Origin: Sphingomonas pokkalii
GTDB lineage: Bacteria > Pseudomonadota > Alphaproteobacteria > Sphingomonadales > Sphingomonadaceae
NCBI RefSeq assembly: GCF_003096275.1
Contig: NZ_QENQ01000001.1
Span: 3,329,565 to 3,393,564, forward strand
Length of the DNA stretch: 64,000 nucleotides
Reading direction: 5' to 3'
The notes beneath the pieces were generated by a model that saw only the letters and a program-made list of their open reading frames with translations, was not told the origin of the DNA and searched no databases. This document shows, one piece after another, positions 36,936 through 54,605 of this stretch; positions within the stretch are counted from its first letter, which is position 1, and each line of letters begins with the position of its first letter. The translations under genes were made by a program, and so were the position numbers.

Positions 36936-37715
36936 TCACTTCGCCGCGGCGGCGTGCGGCTTGGTGGTCAGCGCGCCCTTGGCGGCCTGATCGATGACGT
37001 CCGCAACCGCCTTGGGCTGGGTCAGAAACACGACGTGGCTACCCTTCACTTCCGTGGTGATCGCGCCGATCCGGTGTGCCGTGCTGCGCAGCAGCTTGGG
37101 GTCGATCGCGCCGTCTTCGGTGGCGACCACTGCCCAGCTGGGCTTCGACTTGAATGCGGCAAAGGCTATTTTCGCCTTCAGCGCGGCCATGGCGACCGGG
37201 ACCTGGCTGTCCCGCAGGAAGGCGCCTACCTCCTCGCTGGTGTCGGCGGCAAAACCCGCCTTGAACTTCTGCTTGTTGAGGAACGCGAAGCCATCCGCGG
37301 TCTCTTCGGGAACGAAGTTCGGTGGCGGCGCAACCTCGGCATATTGGTCGAGGGTGGACGTGCCAACTTCCGGCGCGAAGGCCGCGACGTAAACCAGGCC
37401 AACAACCTTGTTGCTGCCGCCCGCCTGGGTGATGACGCTGCCACCATAGCTGTGGCCCACCAGGATCGTGGGGCCGTCCTGCCGGGCCAGGACGCGGTTC
37501 GTGGCGGCGACGTCGTCGTCGAACGAGGTCAGTGGATTCTGAACGATGCTGACGTGGTAGCCGCGCGACGTGAGCTCTTCATATACACCCTTCCATCCCG
37601 ATCCGTCCGCGAAAGCCCCGTGGACGAGCACGATGTTCTTAACGGCTTGTGCATGGGCCGCACCCGAGAAGCCGACGGTTGCGGTGGCGGCGAGAATGGC
37701 GTGACGAATGTTCAT
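36936..37715 (-). CDS. Secreted alpha/beta hydrolase (paralogue A)
   Basis: A 259-residue alpha/beta hydrolase with a signal peptide ending AAHAQ. The oxyanion region is VLVHGAFADGSGWKGVY, the nucleophile elbow is LVGHSYGGSVIT (Ser in GHSYG), and the catalytic His is in KGSHVVFLTQPKAV. The acid is probably in AVVATEDGAID. It resembles the group of small secreted hydrolases annotated as salicylate-esterase-like. A close paralogue is at 41052 in this window. Its promoter contains tandem TATCGCGATA palindromes, so it is likely under a specific repressor. Substrate unknown. Confidence 0.88.
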   Translation of the reverse strand: MNIRHAILAATATVGFSGAAHAQAVKNIVLVHGAFADGSGWKGVYEELTSRGYHVSIVQNPLTSFDDDVAATNRVLARQDGPTILVGHSYGGSVITQAGGSNKVVGLVYVAAFAPEVGTSTLDQYAEVAPPPNFVPEETADGFAFLNKQKFKAGFAADTSEEVGAFLRDSQVPVAMAALKAKIAFAAFKSKPSWAVVATEDGAIDPKLLRSTAHRIGAITTEVKGSHVVFLTQPKAVADVIDQAAKGALTTKPHAAAAK

Positions 37716-37731
37716 GGCTATATTCCTTAGT

Positions 37732-37809
37732 GCGATAATAATTATCGCGATATCTGTATTTTAGACAACTCGCATCGATTCTGTCTAGCAAAAATAGTTA
37801 TCGCGATAA
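37732..37809. promoter_or_regulatory. Tandem TATCGCGATA operators upstream of hydrolase A
   Basis: Three palindromes lie just upstream of the hydrolase start: GCGATAAT-A-ATTATCGC (37732-37748), overlapping TATCGCGATA (37743-37752), and TTATCGCGATAA (37798-37809). The outer sites are about 60 bases apart in AT-rich DNA. This is the pattern of a dimeric repressor binding two operators around a promoter. The regulator is not identified. Confidence 0.6.
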
Positions 37810-37853
37810 TATTCTTGCGACGGCACCCTCGAGCTGCGTGCACCGTCGGCGCG

Positions 37854-38624: not shown

Positions 38625-38964
38625 CTCTTGACCCTTCATCGCATCCGCTTCGATCTGCCGGCAGTTTCCCACGCGGCAACGGGCGGGGACACCCCAAGTC
38701 GGGTTAGCGTTACATCCGCCATTTGGGTGGAGGCTTTCTCGGGGACGCTCCGCACGGGCCCGCGCCGCTATGCCCTGCAGGAAAGCGGGGGGAAGCAATG
38801 GTTCACATCGTGCCGGCTAGCAGAGCCTCCTACATCCCGGCATCCCGAGACGAGGTACCGCCGAGTTGGTCTTTTGGAGGTGCCGATGCAGTATGGGGGA
38901 GGTAGGCTATTTCCCTGCTTCCGGGCGAGGGAGCATGGTTTGGGGAAAGGGGGCTGGTTCGACA

Positions 38965-39150
38965 ATGCTGATGCACAACATTCGGCAACACGCATATGGG
39001 CGTGAAATCGAGATCCTGTTGATGTGGGAACATGGAAGGCCGAGCCTGTTGCTGCGCGACGACGGCATCGGCCTCCCGGAGGAGTTGCTCGCCCGGGGCG
39101 TCGGCGTTCATGCCCTGCTGCATCGCATCCGCAGGCTGGTCCGGCGATGA
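38965..39150 (+). pseudogene. C-terminal remnant of a histidine kinase
   Basis: About 61 codons reading NIRQHAYGREIEILLMWEHG, then LLRDDGIGLPEELLARGVGV and MLLHRIRRLVRR-like end. This is the last part of a HATPase domain of a NarX/DegS-type kinase: only the G1 box (DDGIGLP) and the end remain. The dimerisation domain, phospho-His and N box are absent. Its stop overlaps the ATG of the next regulator (ATGA), the normal kinase-regulator arrangement. It is thus the tail of a lost kinase gene. Confidence 0.6.
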
Positions 39151-39773
39151 CGTCGCCGCCGATCCGCGTCCTGGTGGTCGATGACCATGTCCTGTTGCGA
39201 CAGGGCATTGCCGGGATCCTTGCGCCCGAACCCGACATCGAGCTGGTTGCCGAGGCGACGAACGGTGCCGAAGCGGTCGAGACCTTCGTGCGCATGCGGC
39301 CCGACGTGACGCTGATGGACCTTCAGATGCCCGTCCTCGCGGGTATCGAGGCGATCCAGCGCATCCGCAGCGGCGCCCCCCATGCCCGAATCATCGTTCT
39401 GACAACCTATCCCGGCGACGTGCAGGCGGTGAAAGCGCTCAAGGCAGGTGCCTCCGGATATCTGCTCAAGAGCTCGCTGATCGACGAGTTGCTGCGCGCC
39501 ATTCGCGCCGTACACGGCGGGCGACGCTATATCCCCGCGGACGTGGCCCAGGAAATCGCCTTGCACGCCGCCGAAGAGCCGCTGAGCGCCCGGGAGGTCG
39601 ACATCCTGGCGCTGGTCGCGGCGGGCAAGGCCAACAAGGTGGTGGCGCATGAACTGTCCGTCTCCGAACAGACCGTGAAGGCGCATCTGCGCACGATCTT
39701 CCAGAAGCTCGGGGTCAACGACCGGACGCAGGCTGTCACCACCGCCCTCCGGCGGGGAATCATCACGCTATAG
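39147..39773 (+). CDS. NarL/LuxR-family response regulator
   Basis: A 208-residue NarL-type regulator. The receiver is complete (VLVVDDHVLLRQGI; phospho-Asp in VTLMDLQMPVLAG; Thr in IIVLTTYPGD; Lys in YLLKSS), and the C-terminal LuxR HTH reads LSAREVDILALVAAGKANK and VSEQTVKAHLRTIF. It would be activated by a histidine kinase, but the kinase gene fused upstream by an ATGA overlap is reduced to a short tail. It may now be driven by another kinase or by acetyl phosphate. Confidence 0.92.
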   Translation: MTSPPIRVLVVDDHVLLRQGIAGILAPEPDIELVAEATNGAEAVETFVRMRPDVTLMDLQMPVLAGIEAIQRIRSGAPHARIIVLTTYPGDVQAVKALKAGASGYLLKSSLIDELLRAIRAVHGGRRYIPADVAQEIALHAAEEPLSAREVDILALVAAGKANKVVAHELSVSEQTVKAHLRTIFQKLGVNDRTQAVTTALRRGIITL

Positions 39774-40129: not shown

Positions 40130-40906
40130 ATGTACCACTCCGTATCGCCCTTCGACGAGGACATGGAACATCCGATTTCCTCCGCCGGACCCGCGGGGAT
40201 CGGACGCGTTCTTGTCGTCGAGGAAGATCTCGGCCGGCGCGGTGCGATCCTGTCCTACCTCGTCGATCGCCAATGCTCCCCGATGGGCTGCGGGGCGTCC
40301 GAGGTGCTGCGCCACATCCGCGGCCCGTCGTTCGGCCTGATCACCCTCAACGTGCGTCTGGGCTCGGTGGACGGGGTGGAGATCCTGCGGCAGATCCGAG
40401 CCCGCTCGGACGTTCCCGTGATCTTGTACGCCGATGGCCCCCAAGCGGACGTCGATCGGATCATCTGGCTCGAACTGGGGGCGGACGACGTCCTGAGCGG
40501 CCCCCTCAACCTCGACCTGTTGCTGGCGCGCGCCCGCGCGATCCTTCGGCGGCAGGAACTGGGGCGCTCCGTCATCGCATCTTCCCGCGGCGGATATGCC
40601 TTTCGCGGGTGGGAACTCCGCAATGCGACACGAGAGCTCAAGGCCCCGGGCGGAGCGGACGTCAGCCTGACGAAGCGGGAATATGCGCTGCTGGTGGCGC
40701 TGCTGGTGGCGCCGGGCCGCACCCTTTCGAGGGTGCACCTGATGCGCGCCACCAGGACGCAAGAGGATGTGTATGACCGAAGCATCGACGTGCAGATTCT
40801 CAGGCTGCGGCGCAGGCTGGAAAGCCATCCCTCCGGCAGGGGCCTGATACGAACCGAGCGGGGCGTCGGCTATGCGCTGGACGCCCGGGTCGAGCCCCTA
40901 TTCTGA
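40130..40906 (+). CDS. OmpR-type regulator with degenerate receiver (paralogue 1)
   Basis: A 258-residue protein with a receiver-like domain (about 25-140) and an intact OmpR-type winged-helix domain (LTKREYALLVALLVAPGRTL; YDRSIDVQILRLRRRLE; GVGYAL). The receiver has the acidic pair (VVEEDLG), but the phospho-acceptor Asp is Asn74 (LITLNVRLGSVDG), the switch Thr is Tyr100 (PVILYADG), and the conserved Lys is Gly124 (VLSGPLN). It cannot be phosphorylated in the usual way. A paralogue with the same three changes is at 50392. It lies 145 bases upstream of hydrolase B on the same strand, a possible target. Confidence 0.88.
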   Translation: MYHSVSPFDEDMEHPISSAGPAGIGRVLVVEEDLGRRGAILSYLVDRQCSPMGCGASEVLRHIRGPSFGLITLNVRLGSVDGVEILRQIRARSDVPVILYADGPQADVDRIIWLELGADDVLSGPLNLDLLLARARAILRRQELGRSVIASSRGGYAFRGWELRNATRELKAPGGADVSLTKREYALLVALLVAPGRTLSRVHLMRATRTQEDVYDRSIDVQILRLRRRLESHPSGRGLIRTERGVGYALDARVEPLF

Positions 40907-41051
40907 CGCCGCCGCAATGGACGAGCGCAATGCGACATCATCGCGAGCAGCCGATGCCGCGGAAGCCGTCGCGAGATCACCGGCGGACGCAGGCAGTGCC
41001 GGTCAGCCAACTTCACAGCGGCGCACGTGCGCCTTTTTCCTAGGAGACATT

Positions 41052-41855
41052 ATGATGCGAAAAACCCTTGCACGCACGGCGATTGCCGCCGCTGCCCTGC
41101 TGTGGATGATCCCAGCCGCCGAGGCCCAGACCGCCACGGCACCGTCGACAACCGCCCGCATCGTTCTGGTGCATGGGGCGTTTGCGGACGGATCGGGTTG
41201 GCGGGGGCTGTATGATGTGCTCACGGCGCGAGGCTATCGGGTGTCCATCGTCCAGAATCCACTGACGTCGTTGAAGGAGGATGTGGATGCGACGACGCGG
41301 GTGATCGAACGACAGGACGGGCCGGTGATCCTCGTTGGTCACAGCTGGGGAGGCACGGTCATCACGGCTGCGGGCGTCCACCCCAAGGTCAAGGCGCTCG
41401 TCTACATATCCGCGCTCGCGCCCGATGCCGGCGAGACGACCGCGCAGCAATATGAAGGTTTTCCGCCGGCTTCCGAATTCGTGATCGACAAGCAGAGCGA
41501 CGGCTACGGGTTCATCGACCTGCAGCGATTCAAGGCCGGCTTTGCTGCCGATACGAATGACGCCGATGCCGCGTTCCTGCGCGATTCCCAGGTGCCGATC
41601 AACATGTCCGTCTTCGGCACGCGGCTCACCCAGGCCGCCTGGCGCACCCGGCCCAGCTGGGCCGTCATCGCCAAGCAGGACAAGGCCTTCGGCGCGGGGA
41701 TGCTGATGCACATGGCAAAGCGCATCGGCGCGAAGATCACCGAAGTGCCGGGCAGCCACGCCGTCTTCATGACGCAGCCCAAGGCCATCGCCCGGGTGAT
41801 CGACAGCGCGGCACAGGACATTGGTAGCGCCCCTAGCGTGGCAAAGGTTCGGTAG
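41052..41855 (+). CDS. Secreted alpha/beta hydrolase (paralogue B)
   Basis: A 267-residue protein with a signal peptide (AIAAAALLWMIPAAEAQ) and the same catalytic layout as hydrolase A: VLVHGAFADGSGWRGLY, nucleophile Ser in LVGHSWGGTVIT, and His in GSHAVFMTQPKA. The two share long identical stretches such as SIVQNPLTS. ATG 41052 follows AGGAGA at good spacing. The 3' end overlaps the truncated tssH frame by 35 bases. It probably belongs to the regulon of the upstream OmpR-type protein. Substrate unknown. Confidence 0.88.
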   Translation: MMRKTLARTAIAAAALLWMIPAAEAQTATAPSTTARIVLVHGAFADGSGWRGLYDVLTARGYRVSIVQNPLTSLKEDVDATTRVIERQDGPVILVGHSWGGTVITAAGVHPKVKALVYISALAPDAGETTAQQYEGFPPASEFVIDKQSDGYGFIDLQRFKAGFAADTNDADAAFLRDSQVPINMSVFGTRLTQAAWRTRPSWAVIAKQDKAFGAGMLMHMAKRIGAKITEVPGSHAVFMTQPKAIARVIDSAAQDIGSAPSVAKVR

Positions 41856-43113
41856 CGGTTACCGGCTGTTCGTCGGGATCGCGCCCACCATAGAGGCGCT
41901 TGCGGAAGCGCGCGCGGCCCTGGCGGAGCTCGAGTTGCGATGGGCGGAGGAGCGCGCGGCGGTTGCCGCCGTGGCGCAGGCGCGGCTGGCCCTGCGCGAT
42001 TCGGCCGACGGTGCGGATGCGCTCGCGGCGGCGGAGGCGGCGCGTGGGGAGCGCGAGATGGTCCATGGCGAGGTGACCGCCGAGATGGTCGCGACGGTCG
42101 TCGGGGACTGGACCGGCATTCCGGTCGGGCGGATGGTCAAGGACGAGCTGTCCGCCGTGCTGGAGATGGAGGATCGGCTCAAGCGCCGCGTGATCGGGCA
42201 GGACCATGCGATGGCGGCGATCGCCCGACGGCTGCGCACCAACCGCGCCCGGCTGGACAATCCGGACAAGCCGGTGGGGGTGTTCCTGCTCTGCGGTCCT
42301 TCGGGTGTCGGCAAGACCGAGACCGCGCATGCGCTCGCCGAACTGCTGTACGCGGGCGACGACAGCCTGATCACGATCAACATGAGCGAATTCCAGGAAG
42401 CGCACACCGTCTCGACGCTCAAGGGCGCGCCCGCGGGCTATGTCGGCTATGGGCAGGGCGGGGTGCTGACCGAAGCGGTGCGCCGCCGCCCCTATTCGGT
42501 GGTGCTGCTCGACGAAGTCGAGAAGGCGCACCCGGACGTCCATGAGATGTTCTTCCAGGTGTTCGACAAGGGATATATGGAGGACGCCGAAGGGCGCTAT
42601 ATCGACTTTCGCAACACGCTGATCCTGCTCACCTCGAATGTCGGCACCGACCTCATCGCGACGTTGTGCGAGGACGAGGAAACCGCGCCGGCACCCGAGG
42701 CGCTGGCCAGCGCGCTACGCCCCGAACTGCTCGGGGTGTTTCCGCCCGCGCTGCTCGGACGGCTGAATGTGCTGCCCTATGTGCCGCTCTCGCAGACGAT
42801 GCTCCGGCGAATCGTCGAACTGCAGCTCGCCCGCATCGTCCGCAGGGTTGCGGAGAACCACAACGCCGCCCTGATCTGCGCGCCGGCGACGATCGATCTG
42901 ATCGTGTCGCGCTGCGAGGAAGTCGCCTCGGGTGGGCGCATGATCGACGCGATCCTCACCAACACGCTGCTCCCGGAGCTGTCGCTCGGGCTGATCGAGC
43001 GTCAGATCGCCGGCGATACCGTGATCGCCATCCATGTCGGTGTCGACGAGGCCGGCTTCACCTATCGGTTCGATGTCGAGGGCGCCGAAGCGCCCGCGCT
43101 CGCGGCCGAATGA
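41821..43113 (+). pseudogene. tssH: tssH (clpV) 3' half, type VI secretion ATPase remnant
   Basis: A 430-codon frame equal to the second half of TssH/ClpV, which is normally about 880 residues. Residues from about 25 match the middle-domain end and the second AAA+ module: Walker A GPSGVGKTETAH at about 159-170, the NMSEFQEAHTVSTLKGAPAG stretch typical of ClpV, Walker B VVLLDEVEKAH near 227-237, and the C-terminal subdomain (GGRMIDAILTNTLLPELS). The N-terminal sheath-binding domain and the first AAA+ module are missing. The frame opens inside the hydrolase gene with no real ClpV start. It cannot recycle a T6SS sheath. Confidence 0.85.
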
Positions 43114-43126
43114 GCGGGCAGGGGCT

Positions 43127-45460
43127 GTGACCGATCGCGAGCAATCCGGCGGCGACCGTACGGTCGTCGCCATCGAGGGCGGGGCCGGCGTGTCGATGCC
43201 GGGTAGGGGCTGGGCTGGCCGGGTATCGGCCAGCCTCGCGCCCGGGGACGTGCTGAACGGCATCTATCGCGTCAAGCGCTTCGTCGCGCGCGGCGGCATG
43301 GGCGAGGTGTTCGAAGGCATCAACGTCGAGAGCGACGAGCGCGTCGCGATCAAGGCGATCCGCAGCCACCTTGCGCAGGACATCAAGGTGATCGCGATGT
43401 TCCGCAAGGAAGCGCGGGTGCTCACGCAGATCGCCCACCCCGCGATCGTACAATATCGCGTGCTGGCGCGCGATCCGGTGCTCGAGCTCTACTACATCGT
43501 CACCGACTTCATCGACGGCGAGCCGCTGACCGCCCACCTCAACGGCACGCATCCCTCCGTCGGCGCCATCGTGACGCTCGCGCGGCGGCTCGCGGCGGGG
43601 CTGCAGGCGGCGCACGACCATGGTGCGATCCATCGCGACATGTCGCCGGACAACGTGCTGCTTCCGGACGGGCGGATCAAGCGCGCCAAGATCATCGACT
43701 TCGGTATCGCCAAAAGCCTCGATGTCACGGCCGAAACGGTGCTGGGGGACGGCTTCGCAGGCAAGATCGGCTATGTCGCGCCGGAGCAGTTCGGCGACTA
43801 TGACCGGCAGGTGGGCCCGTGGACCGATGTCTACAGCACCGCGTTGGTGCTGCTCGCCTATGCGCGGGGCAAGCCCCCCCCCATGGGCACCAGCCTGGCC
43901 GACGCTGTCGAACGTCGCCGCCAGCGGCCGGATTTCGATGGGCTTCCGCCGCTGCTCGAACCCCTGTTCCGCCAGATGCTTGCGCCTGATCCTGCGGAGC
44001 GGATTCGCTCGATGGCCGAGGTGCTGGCCTTCCTGGACGCGCTGGAGCTGCCGGAGGCGCCCCCTGCGATCGATCCGGACCCTCCAATTGCTCCCCCGCC
44101 GCCGCCTGTCGATGCGCTCCAGGCGGCGGGGCCGGAAACGATGTTCGTGCCCGCGCCCGATCCCGCCCCCCTCCGCACGCCAAGCCCGTCGCCGACGCCG
44201 CGCGCCTCCGGCCCGGCCAAGCGCCCCGCGACGACACCCCGAAAGCGGCGGAGCAAGGTGAAATGGGGGGTGGCGGCACTGCCGGTTGCCGGGTTCGCAT
44301 TGTGGCACGTCGTACCGCCTTCGCCGCCGCCGCCCGCACCCGCGCCGGTTCGTGCTGCGCCGGTGCCAAAGCCCGTCGCGGATGGCGGGCCGCAGGTGCA
44401 GGTCGAGCGGCTGCTTGCCGGGCTCGCAAAGGCGCCCTGCACCTGGGTCTCGGCAAGAGAAGGGGGCGGCGGCGCGCCGTTGATCCTCAGCGGTGCCGCG
44501 GGCGATCGCGCCTCCTTCGACCAGCGTGCCGGCGGGTTCGCGACCCAGGCCGGGCTCGCCGGCAGGCAGCTCGACTCGAGCAACGTGATGCCGCTGCCGC
44601 CCGGACGCTGTGCGCTCATCGACGCGCTGAAGCCGTTCGATACCCCGAGTGCGGGTGGCGATCGGCTGGGCATCTCAGCGAGCAGGGTCTCGCTTGGCGA
44701 GGCTCGGCCTGCATGCCCCGGCGGGGTCGGCGCGCAGCTCGACATCTGGGTCGAGGAACGCGATCCCGCGCGCGATTTCGCACTGCTTGCGCTCGATCCG
44801 TCCGGCAGCGTGCGTTCGCTCGTCGCGGGGCGTGACGCGTTTCGCACGCGCTCGCAAGAGAATGCGAAGGCCTATTATACCAACGGCAATGGCCGCTTCC
44901 ACGTCGCCGCCTGCTTCGCCTCTACCGGTACCGCTGGCGTGCTGCTCGTCGACCGCCGCGGGCCTCTCGACCTTGGTGGCAGCCGGGAAGCAGGCTTGCC
45001 CGAGCGCCTCGGTGCGCTTGCGGCGGCGCAGGGGTGGCGCGTCCGATCGGAATGGGTTGCCGTGGAGACGCCGCCGCCCGGCGGGCCAAGCACGCTGGCG
45101 TCGCCGAGCCCAAGCCCCGAACCAACGGCGAGCACCAAGCCGCAGCCGACGGCGACAATGGCCGGTACGGCGCCCGTGCCCCCTGCGGATTCACCCAAGG
45201 GTATCGCCGACCTGCGGGATCTCGAAAGGAGCCACCAGCGGCAGAATAGCGGCGTGGGCGCCTGTTACAGCTATCGCGGGGCCTGGACCTCGCTCGGCTA
45301 CACCAGCAAGTCTGCCTGCGTGCTTTCCGTGTTCCAGAACCGGTGCGACGTGAAGAACGGGCAATTCGACAAGACCGAACTGCGCCGCGCGGGCGGCTTC
45401 ATCGAGGAGCGGCGCGGGCGCAAGTGGCGCGTGATCCTCAGCGATCGCCGCTGCGGGTGA
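43127..45460 (+). CDS. PpkA-like serine/threonine kinase with periplasmic domain
   Basis: A 777-residue membrane kinase. The kinase domain (about 45-320) has a Gly loop (FVARGGMGEVFEG), Lys76 (VAIKAI), HRD at 169-171 with Asn176 (HRDMSPDNVLL), and DFG at 191-193, so it should be active. A proline-rich linker, a membrane segment (about 378-398) and a periplasmic region follow, ending in a Cys-containing domain (GACYSYRGAWTSLGY). In T6SS loci such kinases (PpkA) switch on secretion through Fha. Here it follows the tssH remnant by 13 bases, and no other T6SS gene is in the window. Start GTG 43127 follows GGCAGGGG. Confidence 0.82.
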   Translation: MTDREQSGGDRTVVAIEGGAGVSMPGRGWAGRVSASLAPGDVLNGIYRVKRFVARGGMGEVFEGINVESDERVAIKAIRSHLAQDIKVIAMFRKEARVLTQIAHPAIVQYRVLARDPVLELYYIVTDFIDGEPLTAHLNGTHPSVGAIVTLARRLAAGLQAAHDHGAIHRDMSPDNVLLPDGRIKRAKIIDFGIAKSLDVTAETVLGDGFAGKIGYVAPEQFGDYDRQVGPWTDVYSTALVLLAYARGKPPPMGTSLADAVERRRQRPDFDGLPPLLEPLFRQMLAPDPAERIRSMAEVLAFLDALELPEAPPAIDPDPPIAPPPPPVDALQAAGPETMFVPAPDPAPLRTPSPSPTPRASGPAKRPATTPRKRRSKVKWGVAALPVAGFALWHVVPPSPPPPAPAPVRAAPVPKPVADGGPQVQVERLLAGLAKAPCTWVSAREGGGGAPLILSGAAGDRASFDQRAGGFATQAGLAGRQLDSSNVMPLPPGRCALIDALKPFDTPSAGGDRLGISASRVSLGEARPACPGGVGAQLDIWVEERDPARDFALLALDPSGSVRSLVAGRDAFRTRSQENAKAYYTNGNGRFHVAACFASTGTAGVLLVDRRGPLDLGGSREAGLPERLGALAAAQGWRVRSEWVAVETPPPGGPSTLASPSPSPEPTASTKPQPTATMAGTAPVPPADSPKGIADLRDLERSHQRQNSGVGACYSYRGAWTSLGYTSKSACVLSVFQNRCDVKNGQFDKTELRRAGGFIEERRGRKWRVILSDRRCG

Positions 45461-50251: not shown

Positions 50252-50391
50252 GGTCGGAGGAAACATGGGCGGCATGGTGCAGGCGTGCGGGCGGCAGTGT
50301 TGTCGTGCTATGGTCAAAAGTTGCCATAAGAAGTTACATTCATGTCAGATATTGGTCTGGATAATATTGTAAATTGGATGCTGTGGGCGCG

Positions 50392-51153
50392 TCAGAACAG
50401 GCGTTCGACCTGGGCATCCAGTCGGTAGCCGAAACCGCGCTCCGTCTTGATGAGCGCCTCGCCGCCCGGCACTGCGGCGAGCTTCTTGCGCAACCGCAGG
50501 ACCTGCACGTCGACACTCCGGTCGTAAATGTCGTCATGCGCGCGCGTGGCCCGCATCAGGTGCACCCGCGAAAGCGAGCGACCGGGTGCCTCCAGCAATG
50601 CGGCGAGCAGGCCATATTCCCCTTTGGTGAGATCGATTGCGCTGCCGTCGGGTGCCACGAGGGCGCGATCAGCATGCCGCATTTCCCAGCCCGAGAAGCG
50701 ATAGCCGCCGCGCAGCGGTGCACCGGCAATGCGTCCCAGGTCCTGCCGCCGCAGCACGGCACGGGCGCGCGCCACCAGTTCTGCCGGGTTCAGCGTGCCT
50801 GCGATGAAATCGTCGGCACCCAGTTCCAGCCCCACGATGACGGAAACGCTGTCCTGGCAGAGATCGTCATACAGGATCACGGGAACGTCGGAGCGACTAC
50901 GGATCTCCCGCAGCACATCGAGCGCATCGCGGCTTTGCAGACGCGCATTCAACACGATCAGGCTGAGCTGCCGGCTGTGCAACTGGTGTGCCACCTCGCG
51001 CGCACCTGCGCTGACGGAGATCCAGCGATGGTCACGCAGATAGGCGGTGATGCGATCGCGCGCGCGCTCGTCTTCATCGACGACGAGAATGCGGCCGAGG
51101 CTGAGGGGGAGGTTGGACGGTTCGGCAAATTCACCCATCGGAAAGCGGTACAT
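50392..51153 (-). CDS. OmpR-type regulator with degenerate receiver (paralogue 2)
   Basis: A 253-residue paralogue of the regulator at 40130. The winged-helix domain is intact (LTKGEYGLLAALLEAPGRSL; YDRSVDVQVLRLRKKL; GFGYRLDAQVERLF), and the receiver fold is kept with an acidic pair (VVDEDER). As in its paralogue, the phospho-Asp is Asn69 (LIVLNARLQSRDA), the Thr is Tyr95 (PVILYDD) and the Lys is Gly119 (FIAGTLN). ATG 51153 follows GGAG by 8 bases. It lies 87 bases downstream of the GMC oxidoreductase gene on the same strand, so may be co-transcribed with it. Confidence 0.88.
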   Translation of the reverse strand: MYRFPMGEFAEPSNLPLSLGRILVVDEDERARDRITAYLRDHRWISVSAGAREVAHQLHSRQLSLIVLNARLQSRDALDVLREIRSRSDVPVILYDDLCQDSVSVIVGLELGADDFIAGTLNPAELVARARAVLRRQDLGRIAGAPLRGGYRFSGWEMRHADRALVAPDGSAIDLTKGEYGLLAALLEAPGRSLSRVHLMRATRAHDDIYDRSVDVQVLRLRKKLAAVPGGEALIKTERGFGYRLDAQVERLF

Positions 51154-51240
51154 TGCGTCAACTCCGTGGGGCGCGACGGCGCCGGTATCAGGAGCAGGGG
51201 ATGCGCCCGCACGGGGCGGGCGCACGGTTGGTGGCGGGCG

Positions 51241-52860
51241 TTAGAGCTGGTGCGCCGCGCGGAGGCTGGCGGCGGCCTGCTCCCCGATGATCGCACAGGG
51301 CGCCTGCGTGTTGCCGGTGGCGACACGCGGCATGATCGAGCTGTCGGCAATACGGAGCCCTTCGATGCCGTAGACGCGCAGCGCCCCATCCACCACCGAC
51401 ATGCTGTCGCGGCCCATCTTCGCCGTGCAGGTCTGGTGCCAATAGGTCACCGCCGCATCGCGCACATATTCCTTCAACGCCTCGCGGGAGAGCTTGCCGG
51501 GCATCGCCTCGCCGCGCACCAGCGTCCGGAAGGCCTGCGCGTTGCCGAGGTCGCGGCAGAGCTCGACGCATGCCAACGCGGCTTCCATGTCGGCAGGGTC
51601 CGACATCATGTTGGCGTCGATCTGCAGCGGTACCGCAGCGTCGGCGCTCCGAAGCCGCAGGCGCCCGCGGCTATGCGGCCGCGCCAGGCCGGCGAACATC
51701 GTCCAGCCATGTTCGGGCACGCCGCGCGCCGCGGTCCGCTCGCTCGGCACCGGGAACTCGACCTGGCAGAACAGCAGGTCGGGCGCGGTCAGTTCGGGGC
51801 GGCTCTTCCAGTACAGCGTGGCTTCGCTGCCGCTGTTGCGCGGTGCGATCGGCGCCGCATATTCCCAGATGCACCCGAAGGAGACATGGTCCTGCAGATT
51901 GGCGCCGACCCCGGGCAGGTGCTGGCGGACCGGGATGCCGACTCGGCGCAACTCGGCTTCGTCGCCGATGCCGGAGTGCATCAGCACCTTGGGCGTCTGC
52001 ATCGCGCCCATCGACAGGACGACCTCGTGCACCGCGCCGATGCGTTGGCGCTGGCCGCCCCGCACGATGTCGACGCCGACGGCGCGGTTCCCCTCGAAGG
52101 CGATCCGCTCGACCGTCGTCCCCGTCACCACGGTGAGGTTCGGGCGATCGAGATAGGGGTGCACATAGGCGCGGAACAGCGAGTGGCGGCGGCCGTCGCG
52201 GACCAGCATGTCGCTGATCGCGACGCCGCCTTCGCCTTCCATCATCCGCCCGTTCGGGCTGTCATAGCTGGGAATCCCCAGCGCGTTCGCAGCGTCGAGA
52301 AGCGCATGGGCGACCGGGCTCGGATCCGCCGCGGGCTGGACCCAGACCGGGCCGTTCGAGCCACGGCGAAGCGGATCGGGCGCGCCCTGCCAGTTCTCGA
52401 TACGGCGATAGATATCGAGGACGTTCTGGTAGTTCCAGCGCTCGTCCCCGGCTTCCTCGGCGAAATGGTCCCAGTCGCTGCGATGGCCGCGCGCCCACAC
52501 CATGACGTTGATGCTGGAGCCGCCGCCCAGTCCCTTGCCCATCGACATCGGCAGCGCGCGACCGTTGAGATGGGGGTTCGGCTCGGCGGTGAAGCGCCAG
52601 TCGCGCTCGCCGCCGAGATTGGTCGGCCACAGCGCGGGATCGAGCACGGCCTCGGCCTCGTCGCTGCCGCCGGCCTCGATCAGCAGGACCTGCACCGCCT
52701 CGTTCTCGGCCAGCCGCCGCGCGACGACCGAGCCGGAGGCGCCGGCGCCGCAAACGATGAAGTCATAGGCGGGCTTGAGTTCTGCGGTCAGCCGGGCCTG
52801 GTTTTCGGCAGCGCGGCGCTGGAAGTCCTGCGCGTCGTCGTGATTTGCATGGGTCATCAT
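51241..52860 (-). CDS. GMC-family FAD oxidoreductase
   Basis: A 539-residue glucose-methanol-choline oxidoreductase. The Rossmann motif is FIVCGAGASGSVVARRLAE, followed by LLIEAGG, the GMC-1 signature GKGLGGGSSINVMVWARGH, and the GMC-2 region LSMGAMQTPKVLMHSGIG. The C-terminal active site reads TYWHQTCTAKMG (catalytic His) and ATGNTQAPCAIIGEQAA (second residue is Asn instead of the usual His). It probably oxidises an alcohol. ATG 52860 follows GAAGGAG. The OmpR-type regulator follows on the same strand. Confidence 0.93.
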   Translation of the reverse strand: MMTHANHDDAQDFQRRAAENQARLTAELKPAYDFIVCGAGASGSVVARRLAENEAVQVLLIEAGGSDEAEAVLDPALWPTNLGGERDWRFTAEPNPHLNGRALPMSMGKGLGGGSSINVMVWARGHRSDWDHFAEEAGDERWNYQNVLDIYRRIENWQGAPDPLRRGSNGPVWVQPAADPSPVAHALLDAANALGIPSYDSPNGRMMEGEGGVAISDMLVRDGRRHSLFRAYVHPYLDRPNLTVVTGTTVERIAFEGNRAVGVDIVRGGQRQRIGAVHEVVLSMGAMQTPKVLMHSGIGDEAELRRVGIPVRQHLPGVGANLQDHVSFGCIWEYAAPIAPRNSGSEATLYWKSRPELTAPDLLFCQVEFPVPSERTAARGVPEHGWTMFAGLARPHSRGRLRLRSADAAVPLQIDANMMSDPADMEAALACVELCRDLGNAQAFRTLVRGEAMPGKLSREALKEYVRDAAVTYWHQTCTAKMGRDSMSVVDGALRVYGIEGLRIADSSIMPRVATGNTQAPCAIIGEQAAASLRAAHQL

Positions 52861-52887
52861 CAACTCCTTCGAATGGTTGATGCGCAA

Positions 52888-53298
52888 GCAGGCGGAAGGC
52901 GCGCGCCTCCGTCGGCGCGGAGGCGGCGCAATGCACGCCGCGGACCGCGCCGCAGGAAGGTGGCTCTCGACATGTTTGCGCGACCGGTATGCCGAGCGCT
53001 GGGGCTCGGACGAACCGGCGTTCCGAAGGGGGTGAACTCGCTGAGGGCCTTCGGTGCAGCCCAGGTATCATTTCTATCAAATTTGGCAATGCTGCCGAAT
53101 GCGGTATTTGGCTACAAGTCTGTAACAATGCCGCGACAAGGGGCGACCTGTCGAAGTCTCGCGGCTAGCTTGCTGCTCACGTCGATCATTGTGGGGACGT
53201 GAAAGGACGCGCGCGGCCATGAACACGGCGCGTCGTTGCTGCATCGGCGGGAGGACTTCGCACTCGCCGGCAGGAAGACGGCGCGGCTGCGGGAAGGC
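52888..53298. other. 411-base gap upstream of the GMC gene
   Basis: No supported gene. A GC hairpin (GCCTCCG...CGGAGGC at about 52910) is near the GMC start, and an AT-rich stretch at about 53075-53135 (with TTTCTATCAAATTTGG) is the best candidate for a promoter. Short frames here have no features. Confidence 0.4.
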
Positions 53299-54381
53299 TT
53301 ATCGTTTCGTGCGACCGACCGACCGCAGCTTGCGATCCAGCGACCGCAGCCGCACCTCGTTGGAAGCCACCGCGGCAAGTGCCCGGATCGTCTTGGTTTC
53401 GCGCTCGTCGATCACGCGCGGCTTGCAATCGATCACGCAGAGCGATCCGACGATGAAGCCTTCGTCGTCCAGGACCGGCGCGCCGGCGTAGAAGCGGAAG
53501 CCGGGCGCCCCGGCCACGGCGGGATTGGCGGCGAAGCGCGAATCGGCCGACAGATCCGGCACCGTGAATACGTCGCGCTGCAGGATCGTATGGTTGCAAA
53601 AGGCCCAGCTGCGCGGCGTATCGGCCATGTCGAGGCCGATCTTCGACTTGAACCATTGTTTGGTCGGGGTCAGCAACGTCAGCAGGGCGATCGGCGCCTC
53701 CAGGCTCTGGGCCGCCAGCCAGGTAAGCCGGTCGAAGCTTTCCTCGCTTTGGGAATGCAGCAAGCCGGAGCGTTCGACCGCCATCAGCCGGCGGCGCTCG
53801 TCCTGCGAGACCGGGAAGGCGACGCCCCATTCCTCAAAATCATTGTCCTCCGCGGCGAACACGGAACCGCGCAGCTGCGCCAAGGCCGCGGTCGGCGTGG
53901 CGGCGCGGCTGATCCTGGCTTCAAGGTCCGAAGGCACCGCGCCTTCCTCGCCGACGGCGACGATCCGGGTGGTGGCGATCGCCTTGTTGGCGGCGAGGCT
54001 GTGCAACAAGGCCTCACTGTTCAGCCCCGAGGTGCAGTCCACCAGAATACCGAACGGCTGCGCGGAGCCGATCGCCACCAGTGCGGCAAGAACGTCGTCG
54101 AAATAGTCGATGGCGAAGTCGGCGGCATTCTCGGCGGCGGCGCGATATGCCGGCAGCCGGTCGCCGGTGGCCACGACGATGAGGATCGCGGACGGAGCGG
54201 CTTCGGCAGGTGGCTGCCTGCTGTCGATCAGCGCGACGACATCGGCATGATAGACGCGGCGGTGGCCACCCGGTGTCTTCCACGAAGGGATCGTCCCGCC
54301 TTCGATCAGCACCTGCGCGGTACGTACCGAGATGCCCAGCAGCTTCGCGGCATCGGCGGTCGTCAAAATGTCCTTCTTCAC
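53299..54381 (-). CDS. Excisionase-type HTH + receiver-like + GAF protein
   Basis: A 360-residue protein with three parts. Residues 1-55 are a MerR/excisionase-type HTH (LTTADAAKLLGISVRTAQVL; TPGGHRRVYHADVV). About 65-175 is a receiver-like domain with an Asp at the usual site (FGILVDCTSGLNSEAL) but little else conserved. About 200-350 is a GAF domain (EAPIALLTLLTPTKQWFKS; RSWAFCNHTILQRD; GFRFYAGAPVLDDEGFIVG). It may couple a small signal or redox state to transcription; Cys in SWAFCNH and VGSLCVID are conserved GAF features in this subgroup. GTG 54381 follows GGAAG; a longer frame to 54435 is open. Confidence 0.8.
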   Translation of the reverse strand: MKKDILTTADAAKLLGISVRTAQVLIEGGTIPSWKTPGGHRRVYHADVVALIDSRQPPAEAAPSAILIVVATGDRLPAYRAAAENAADFAIDYFDDVLAALVAIGSAQPFGILVDCTSGLNSEALLHSLAANKAIATTRIVAVGEEGAVPSDLEARISRAATPTAALAQLRGSVFAAEDNDFEEWGVAFPVSQDERRRLMAVERSGLLHSQSEESFDRLTWLAAQSLEAPIALLTLLTPTKQWFKSKIGLDMADTPRSWAFCNHTILQRDVFTVPDLSADSRFAANPAVAGAPGFRFYAGAPVLDDEGFIVGSLCVIDCKPRVIDERETKTIRALAAVASNEVRLRSLDRKLRSVGRTKR

Positions 54382-54605
54382 GCTTCCGACTCCCTGACCG
54401 CCGGATCCGTCTCCACCGTCAAGCGGCTTCCACAATCTGCTCGAGCGATGTTCCAGACCGATATATTGATAGAATCGGCAATTTAAAGAGCGATCGATGG
54501 TGGCGAAAGTGCGGTGAGCCGTTGGGCAGCGCTAAATGGCTGCGGACGTAACCTTAAGCATCGTCTCCGCGCTTTTCAGAAGATAGGTGCAGGGTATCCG
54601 TATTC

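Follow-up and report, generated by a model that had tools for sequence, protein, structure and literature searches.

Pocketless VirG-like response regulators in Sphingomonas pokkalii and their association with a GMC oxidoreductase and an HTH-REC-GAF regulator

Introduction

Atypical response regulators are an established kind of protein. ChxR, HP1043, CosR, GlnR and NblR are described as independent of Asp phosphorylation. In the available part of a 2025 review (PMC12632262), the known atypical regulators are given as mostly orphans and in several cases as dimers without phosphate; the alpha4-beta5-alpha5 face is the dimer surface in many pseudo-receivers, and Leu, Ala, Ile or Val two residues after the conserved lysine (K+2) push CheY towards active forms. 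The switching of pseudo-receivers is called a mystery there. According to the accessible portion of another study (PMC4395418), receivers that lack the phosphorylatable aspartate mostly retain a basic residue at the position of the lysine (70%) and seldom the second acid of the metal site (29%). RitR of Streptococcus pneumoniae, which is treated in the same portion, carries Asn instead of Asp, an Asp at the Thr position and a DNA-binding output; it has kept the lysine and lost the second metal-site acid.

Here, we analyse two regulators, copy 1 and copy 2, that are encoded in a stretch of 64,000 nucleotides of Sphingomonas pokkalii (contig NZ_QENQ01000001.1, positions 3,329,565 to 3,393,564 of the forward strand; the whole of this stretch is called the window). 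They resemble the regulators named above in their proposed independence of Asp phosphorylation, and RitR in the exchange of Asp for Asn, in the DNA-binding output and, for copy 2, in the Asp at the Thr position. Unlike RitR, they have Gly in place of the lysine, keep both acids, and belong to a clade without a common Cys. ChxR, HP1043, CosR, GlnR and NblR belong to lineages other than this clade. Among named families, VirG of the Agrobacterium-type VirA/VirG system is the closest to both copies and to three intact relatives that were compared, and the REC-wHTH layout is common to all of them; unlike VirG, the two copies have lost the phosphorylation residues and score below the VirG cut-off, and there is neither a DAHL match in the S. 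pokkalii genome (G000) nor a vir box in the window. A third protein of the locus, the presumed partner of copy 2, is similar to BldC in the fold of its HTH and in the link with 9-bp direct repeats. BldC itself is a 68-residue protein that differs from the partner in having neither a receiver nor a GAF domain, and each of its protomers binds one 9-bp direct repeat (PMC5859096, available part). Searches of titles and abstract openings found no account of the clade or of its GMC/HTH-REC-GAF module, and neither is mentioned in the available part of PMC12632262 on atypical regulators; the clade is of a known kind, and it and its module were not found described.

Results

Copy 1 (positions 40130-40906 of the window, plus strand) is an uninterrupted open reading frame of 258 amino acids with the architecture of an OmpR/PhoB response regulator: both Response_reg (PF00072; E 7.4e-10, 39.4 bits, gathering cut-off 30.2) and the winged helix Trans_reg_C (PF00486; E 4.1e-19, 68.9 bits, gathering cut-off 26.2) score above their cut-offs, and the latter bears out the statement of an earlier note on this DNA that the DNA-binding domain is intact. 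The AlphaFold2 model (57 sequences; mean pLDDT 86.2, pTM 0.61) has an ordinary receiver and winged helix, and the solved structures closest to it are those of OmpR/PhoB regulators and receivers. The pocket positions were read from an alignment that included 20 intact relatives, of which two are identical and others close. In place of the Asp, Thr/Ser and Lys that, together with two acids, make up a phosphorylatable pocket, copy 1 has Asn74, Ala101 and Gly124, followed by Leu126 at K+2; both metal-site acids are retained (Glu31 and Glu32). Copy 1 is thus a VirG-like regulator with a pseudo-receiver and, since the Asp is missing, an Asp-less receiver (ALR) by the definition given in the available part of PMC12632262. 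The earlier note had seen all three switch residues changed, to Asn, Tyr and Gly, and this was right for Asn74 and Gly124; the Tyr was misplaced by one residue. In the ungapped alignment of PVILVTGNRREEIDRVLGLELGADD with PVILYADGPQADVDRIIWLELGADD of the nearest intact relatives, the segments from the Pro of beta4 to LELGADD are equal in length, so that Tyr100 is the residue preceding Thr and Ala101 occupies the Thr position. Two aspartates were considered as displaced phosphate acceptors. Asp81 is unconserved, being Asn in two and Val in one of the eight clade members introduced below; Asp102, at T+1, is present in seven of the eight (Asn in L176), yet none of them has the pocket Lys. Asp102 may nevertheless have some role.

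The second pocketless regulator, copy 2 (50392-51153, minus strand), probably starts with the ATG at 51153, as judged by eye within the open reading frame 50392-51225, and is 55% identical to copy 1. Its pocket consists of Asp and Glu as the two acids, Asn at the phospho-site, Asp at the Thr position and Gly at the Lys position. The N/Y/G pattern said to be common to both copies is therefore reduced to its Asn and Gly, copy 2 being Asn/Asp/Gly, and as a signature of the family it does not hold, because the Tyr was misplaced and the phospho-site is Asn, Ser or His in the clade. An open reading frame of 942 amino acids (50374-53202, plus strand) covers copy 2 and the GMC gene in antisense orientation; it is probably a mirror frame of GC-rich coding DNA, and similar mirror frames occur in relatives.

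Homologue searches, in which G000 is always counted, gave matches in 8 of 151 genomes of the genus (E<=1e-45), in 7 of 397 genomes of a family sample and in 6 of 385 of a class sample; when all of the 295 genus genomes were searched with a profile (E<=1e-50), 22 had matches, and six of these carry the pocketless clade. For G000 itself, 20 matches were listed, and the six that follow the two copies (L003-L008) have Asp, Thr/Ser and Lys and are thus of the ordinary kind. A contig scan of the genomes gave, among the matches listed, mostly distant canonical regulators. The pocketless clade comprises eight proteins in seven genomes: two in G000 and one each in G006, G027, G096, G150, G1018 and G274, the last of which belongs to another genus. 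The first seven members formed one clade with support of 100/99 (99/99 for the DNA-binding domain alone), and the eight members, after addition of G1018, one with 100/100. The branching of copy 1 inside the clade is unsure, as it was deepest in the seven-member tree and unresolved in the eight-member tree; in both trees copy 2 was placed among members with Ser at the phospho-site. A tree with copies 1 and 2 as sister genes was rejected (p 2.5e-5, before G1018 was added). Two more pocketless relatives stand elsewhere in the tree, L013 of G002 (Asn/Ser/Trp) and L183 of G018 (Glu/Gly/Arg). A single origin of all ten pocketless forms was rejected (p 0.0038), and grouping L013 with the clade was not (p 0.28). 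L183, with its Glu at the phospho-site, is an independent pocketless relative. In the G002 stretch L116, L013 directly adjoins a P450 gene, and no GMC match was present in that stretch.

Over the eight members, the phospho-site reads N, N, S, S, S, S, N and H, and the T position A, D, T, D, D, A, K and G; the single Thr at or adjoining this position is that of L009, whose alignment is ambiguous there owing to an extra residue. Other positions of the pocket are constant in the clade. The second metal-site acid (Glu32 in copy 1) is Glu in all eight members and Asp in all 20 relatives, and the Lys position (Gly124) is Gly in all members and Lys in all relatives. Leu at K+2 is present in all members as opposed to Phe in 19 of the 20; Asn at K+3 (Asn127) in all members and one relative; Arg at D+2 (Arg76) in all members and five relatives. 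Tyr or Phe at T-1 occurs in all eight and Asp at T+1 in seven members, and neither in any of the relatives. With Lys lost and the second acid kept, the clade is opposite to the usual pattern of Asp-less receivers as given in the available part of PMC4395418. All 28 proteins retain E115, D119, D120 and R134, which in the model would lie on the alpha4-beta5-alpha5 face.

The earlier note had regarded the altered pocket as an inherited trait of a family of regulators without phosphorylation site rather than as decay. The family is real, a single clade retained by selection; the Asn itself is not simply inherited, as the nearest relatives of copy 2 (L010, L011 and L012) carry Ser and L176 carries His. 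The four closest members have dN/dS values of 0.12-0.18 for the receiver and of 0.05-0.12 for the DNA-binding domain, with synonymous sites partly near saturation in this and the following comparison; together with the two intact open reading frames, these values indicate that the loss of the pocket is more than chance. For copy 1 against the six other members, the receiver reaches 0.40-0.60. This higher value, and the fact that copy 1 is not part of the conserved operon and adjoins a truncated clpV gene, would fit a decaying paralogue without function. We consider this quite unlikely, since the reading frame is full-length, the DNA-binding domain is constrained in the same comparison (0.14-0.23) and copy 1 retains the residues that are fixed throughout the clade.

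The intact relatives point to a VirG-like ancestry. VirG (NF010430) was the best NCBIfam match of copies 1 and 2, with 156 and 159 bits, and the intact relatives L104, L100 and L014 reached 254, 247 and 266 bits, likewise under the cut-off of 344. In G875, the kinase encoded next to the intact relative, the one kinase compared with NCBIfam, matched the VirA-like profile NF010411 (732.5 bits, cut-off 647) and had a DAHL domain (145 bits against 38). DAHL kinase matches occurred in 10 of 14 genomes of one search set and in 4 of 18 of another. They are present in 14 of the 17 genomes with an intact relative, the exceptions being G976, G1023 and the more distant G883, and in none of the four genomes that hold only the pocketless clade (G000, G027, G274 and G1018), of the two with L013 or L183, or of nine others of the same genus, three of which (G943, G1054 and G047) have a distant regulator of the ordinary kind. 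As the kinase is likewise missing from genomes that have no intact regulator, the result for the four genomes shows only that the pocketless regulator persists without the kinase. Thirteen loci of intact relatives, from genomes other than G006, were scanned for their neighbours: a match to the G875 kinase was found at 12, to a MauG-like cytochrome peroxidase at 11 and to TssK at 8. Among these 13 loci, an HTH-REC-GAF gene together with a close GMC gene was found only in G875, where a stretch of 11 kb contains the kinase, the intact regulator, the HTH-GAF gene and an oxidoreductase gene of 63% identity; in G969, L201 has a GMC match (50%) and no HTH-GAF gene. With this single locus, and with neither gene beside the nearest intact relative (G207), an ancestral GMC gene under the control of a VirA/VirG pair is conjectural. 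The vir box TNCAATTGAAAY was not found in the window with at most one mismatch.

The genes around copy 2 form a conserved arrangement. The GMC oxidoreductase gene (51241-52887, minus strand) immediately precedes copy 2, which is read in the same direction, and in all seven clade genomes a pocketless regulator gene directly follows the 3' end of the GMC gene in this order and orientation, with the HTH-GAF gene at most 5 kb away. In G000, this operon position is occupied by copy 2, and copy 1 is an extra gene outside the operon. The gathering of homologues that the earlier note had proposed thus did yield one clade, without the constant Asn-Tyr-Gly that it expected; what is constant, in seven of seven genomes, is the presence of the GMC and HTH-REC-GAF genes. 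The HTH-GAF gene occurs in 6 of the 295 genus genomes (E<=1e-60), the very set that carries the pocketless regulator, and GMC matches of at least 77% occur in the same six (E<=1e-180), with matches of 54-74% in 11 further genus genomes at the same threshold. As the three genes are linked, their co-occurrence is not independent evidence for each pair, and within one linked island it may reflect joint transfer. In G006, the kinase, an intact regulator, the pocketless regulator and the oxidoreductase gene adjoin, and the HTH-GAF gene lies beyond the kinase. Such a neighbourhood, and the presence of both kinds of regulator in G096 and G150 as well, could suggest that the pocketless protein modulates the output of an intact VirA/VirG-like pair, either as a heterodimer partner or as a competitor for the promoter, in the manner of WhiI/BldM or CmrT. 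This is very unlikely in our opinion: G000 has neither a DAHL match nor an intact close relative, and G027, G274 and G1018 are without a DAHL match, too.

The partner of copy 2 (53299-54435, minus strand) consists, according to profile and fold matches, of an excisionase/BldC-like HTH head, a receiver-like middle part and a GAF domain. The head exceeds the cut-off of the excisionase-type profile TIGR01764 (40.5 bits against 28.8) and stays far below that of HTH_BldC NF033787 (26.4 against 77); sequence matches to the BldC structures 6AMK and 6AMA have E values of 0.014-0.018. In Foldseek searches with the model of the partner (ma1d17ea7735e; mean pLDDT 59.7, and 64-88 by blocks in the receiver-like part), the head matched BldC chains of 6AMA with a TM of 0.82-0.86 of the target, the middle part receivers such as DivK and FrzS (TM 0.64-0.70), and the tail a GAF-containing diguanylate cyclase. 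For three homologues, no Pfam receiver was found in the middle part at E<=1. Asp133, at the end of the strand 129-133, is invariant in the eight aligned homologues; by eye, no acid pair follows the first strand. In the G006 loci L237 / L109, the HTH-REC-GAF match contains one internal TAG, though the open frame has 387 codons. The pseudo-receiver itself might sense a small molecule, such as a product of the oxidoreductase pathway, or the redox state and so switch DNA binding, similar to JadR1/RedZ or RitR. Direct ligand and redox cases are on record (PMC12632262, available part), the pocket of the clade is rebuilt and not random, and the clade is associated with a metabolic island that contains the GMC gene and, in some loci, hydrolase, P450, BenE, OsmC and MarR genes. 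We nevertheless regard such direct sensing as rather unlikely, because the separate GAF protein is the more obvious sensor and because the eight members have no Cys in common, which argues against a disulfide switch throughout the family.

Two kinds of direct repeat are present in the GMC promoter. The 9-bp repeat TGATA-N4-TGATA (TTGATAGAAATGATA, 53066-53080, minus strand) was found in the GMC promoter of all eight loci with both regulators, i.e. the seven pocketless ones and G875, and in none of 11 loci where a related GMC gene stands without the two regulators (three at 66-74% and eight at 54-58%); seven of the eight positive loci had shaped the pattern, in which G1018 and the 11 GMC-only loci had no part. 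Between 0 and 4 of 200 mononucleotide shuffles contained a match. In the genome of G000, the only site with at most one mismatch is the GMC promoter. A genome-wide 9-bp regulon was considered and dropped, as the 19 sites with up to three mismatches compare with 15 for the reversed control pattern. A looser pattern has two sites in the window, and at least two sites occurred in 10 of 100 shuffles. A related site (TTGATAGAATCGGCA, 54466-54480, plus strand) lies upstream of the HTH-REC-GAF gene and was seen in four genomes. Further upstream in the GMC promoter, TGTTAC-N5-TGTAGC (53111-53127, minus strand) is a candidate 11-bp direct repeat of the OmpR/PhoB type. A spacing of 11 bp is usual for OmpR/PhoB proteins. 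The repeat, in the form TGTaAC-N5-TGTaGC, is present in G000, G150, G027 and G096, four of the seven clade genomes; the G274 and G006 loci have none with up to two mismatches, and G1018 has a single match far from the GMC gene. A second repeat of this type (TCTGAC-N5-TGTAAC, two mismatches) is located at 50333-50349 on the minus strand, just 3' of copy 2 and before the next gene. Since each BldC protomer binds one 9-bp repeat (PMC5859096, available part), the partner fits the 9-bp repeats better than copy 2 does; from their co-occurrence, the two cannot be distinguished as readers of these repeats. Upstream of copy 1, there is no match to the promoter motifs of the GMC and HTH-GAF genes and no 11-bp repeat. 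A degenerate HTH-REC-GAF promoter motif was considered there and discarded, as it reached 3.7 of 50 bits in a position weight matrix and 55 window positions were as good or better.

Copy 1 has different neighbours. The alpha/beta hydrolase B gene (40872-41855, plus strand; signal-peptide-like start near 41052, by eye) does lie directly downstream, as the earlier note had it, although a hydrolase is not the constant neighbour of the clade. It is followed on the same strand by a 5'-truncated type VI secretion clpV gene (41821-43113, of which 42058-43071 matches residues 537-874 of an 889-residue homologue) and by a full-length gene for a PpkA-like Ser/Thr kinase (43034-45460). TssK (PF05936) had no match in G000 and was found in 8 of 14 genomes searched, and the segment 41821-45460 is a type VI remnant beside copy 1 in a genome without TssK match. 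The kinase gene, complete and only 2 kb downstream, raises the idea that copy 1 is controlled by Ser/Thr phosphorylation, which is known for the atypical regulator GlnR (PMC12632262, available part). We judge this to be highly improbable, given that PpkA was found in only G000 and G150 of the seven clade genomes, within the stretches covered, and that it adjoins ClpV in the type VI loci of relatives. Upstream of copy 1, a weak HATPase_c fragment (E 0.019; 38866-39150, plus strand) precedes a NarL-type regulator gene (39024-39773) and is possibly a truncated histidine kinase gene. The palindromic elements TATCGCGATA and GCGATAATTATTATCGC at 37716-37830, found by eye in the promoter of hydrolase A (36936-37715), represent a different operator.

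Discussion

Our analysis leads us to lean towards the view that both copies are regulators with phosphorylation-independent pseudo-receivers, copy 2 acting with the HTH-REC-GAF partner and copy 1 being a divergent form outside the operon. On the sequences sampled, the pocketless clade arose once, within a VirG-like family; VirA-like kinases adjoin most of the intact members of this family. The phosphate relay would have been replaced by dimerisation through the intact alpha4-beta5-alpha5 face without phosphorylation, and the Leu at K+2 together with the rebuilt pocket (Glu32, Arg76, Asp102 and Gly124) may bias the protein towards the active state. Copy 2 would bind the oxidoreductase promoter of its own operon jointly with the partner. 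The BldC-like head of the partner fits the 9-bp TGATA repeats, and the signal probably enters through its GAF domain. Copy 1, by comparison, probably binds DNA constitutively and would be controlled by its amount. Several observations count against this interpretation, among them the higher dN/dS of the copy 1 receiver; the lack of the promoter motifs upstream of copy 1, and of the 11-bp repeat near the GMC gene in G274, G006 and G1018; the three genomes that have an intact relative and no DAHL match; the locus of G207, the nearest intact relative in the tree, which has neither a GMC nor an HTH-REC-GAF neighbour; the intact gene of G006, which is not the closest relative of the pocketless gene that it adjoins; and the low mean pLDDT of the partner model.

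It is tempting to speculate further that a VirA/VirG-like relay was replaced, with the target promoter kept, by a pair made up of a pocketless VirG-like protein and a BldC-headed receiver-like/GAF protein acting on the 9-bp and 11-bp repeats. A cytoplasmic GAF protein would then have taken over sensing from a membrane kinase, and phosphate-free pairing of the two receivers would be the switch. As a whole, this scenario is at present rather doubtful.

The most interesting part of the locus is the paired module of copy 2 with the HTH-REC-GAF regulator, of which copy 1 is a divergent relative. Intact and pocketless forms of one family are present in related genomes, in G006 side by side and next to a kinase, and in G875 an intact form has a target gene and an operator of the same type close by. 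With such pairs, the residues that became fixed, those that drift and the new source of the input can be tested one by one. The clade is thus a good natural case for how phosphate-blind switches work.
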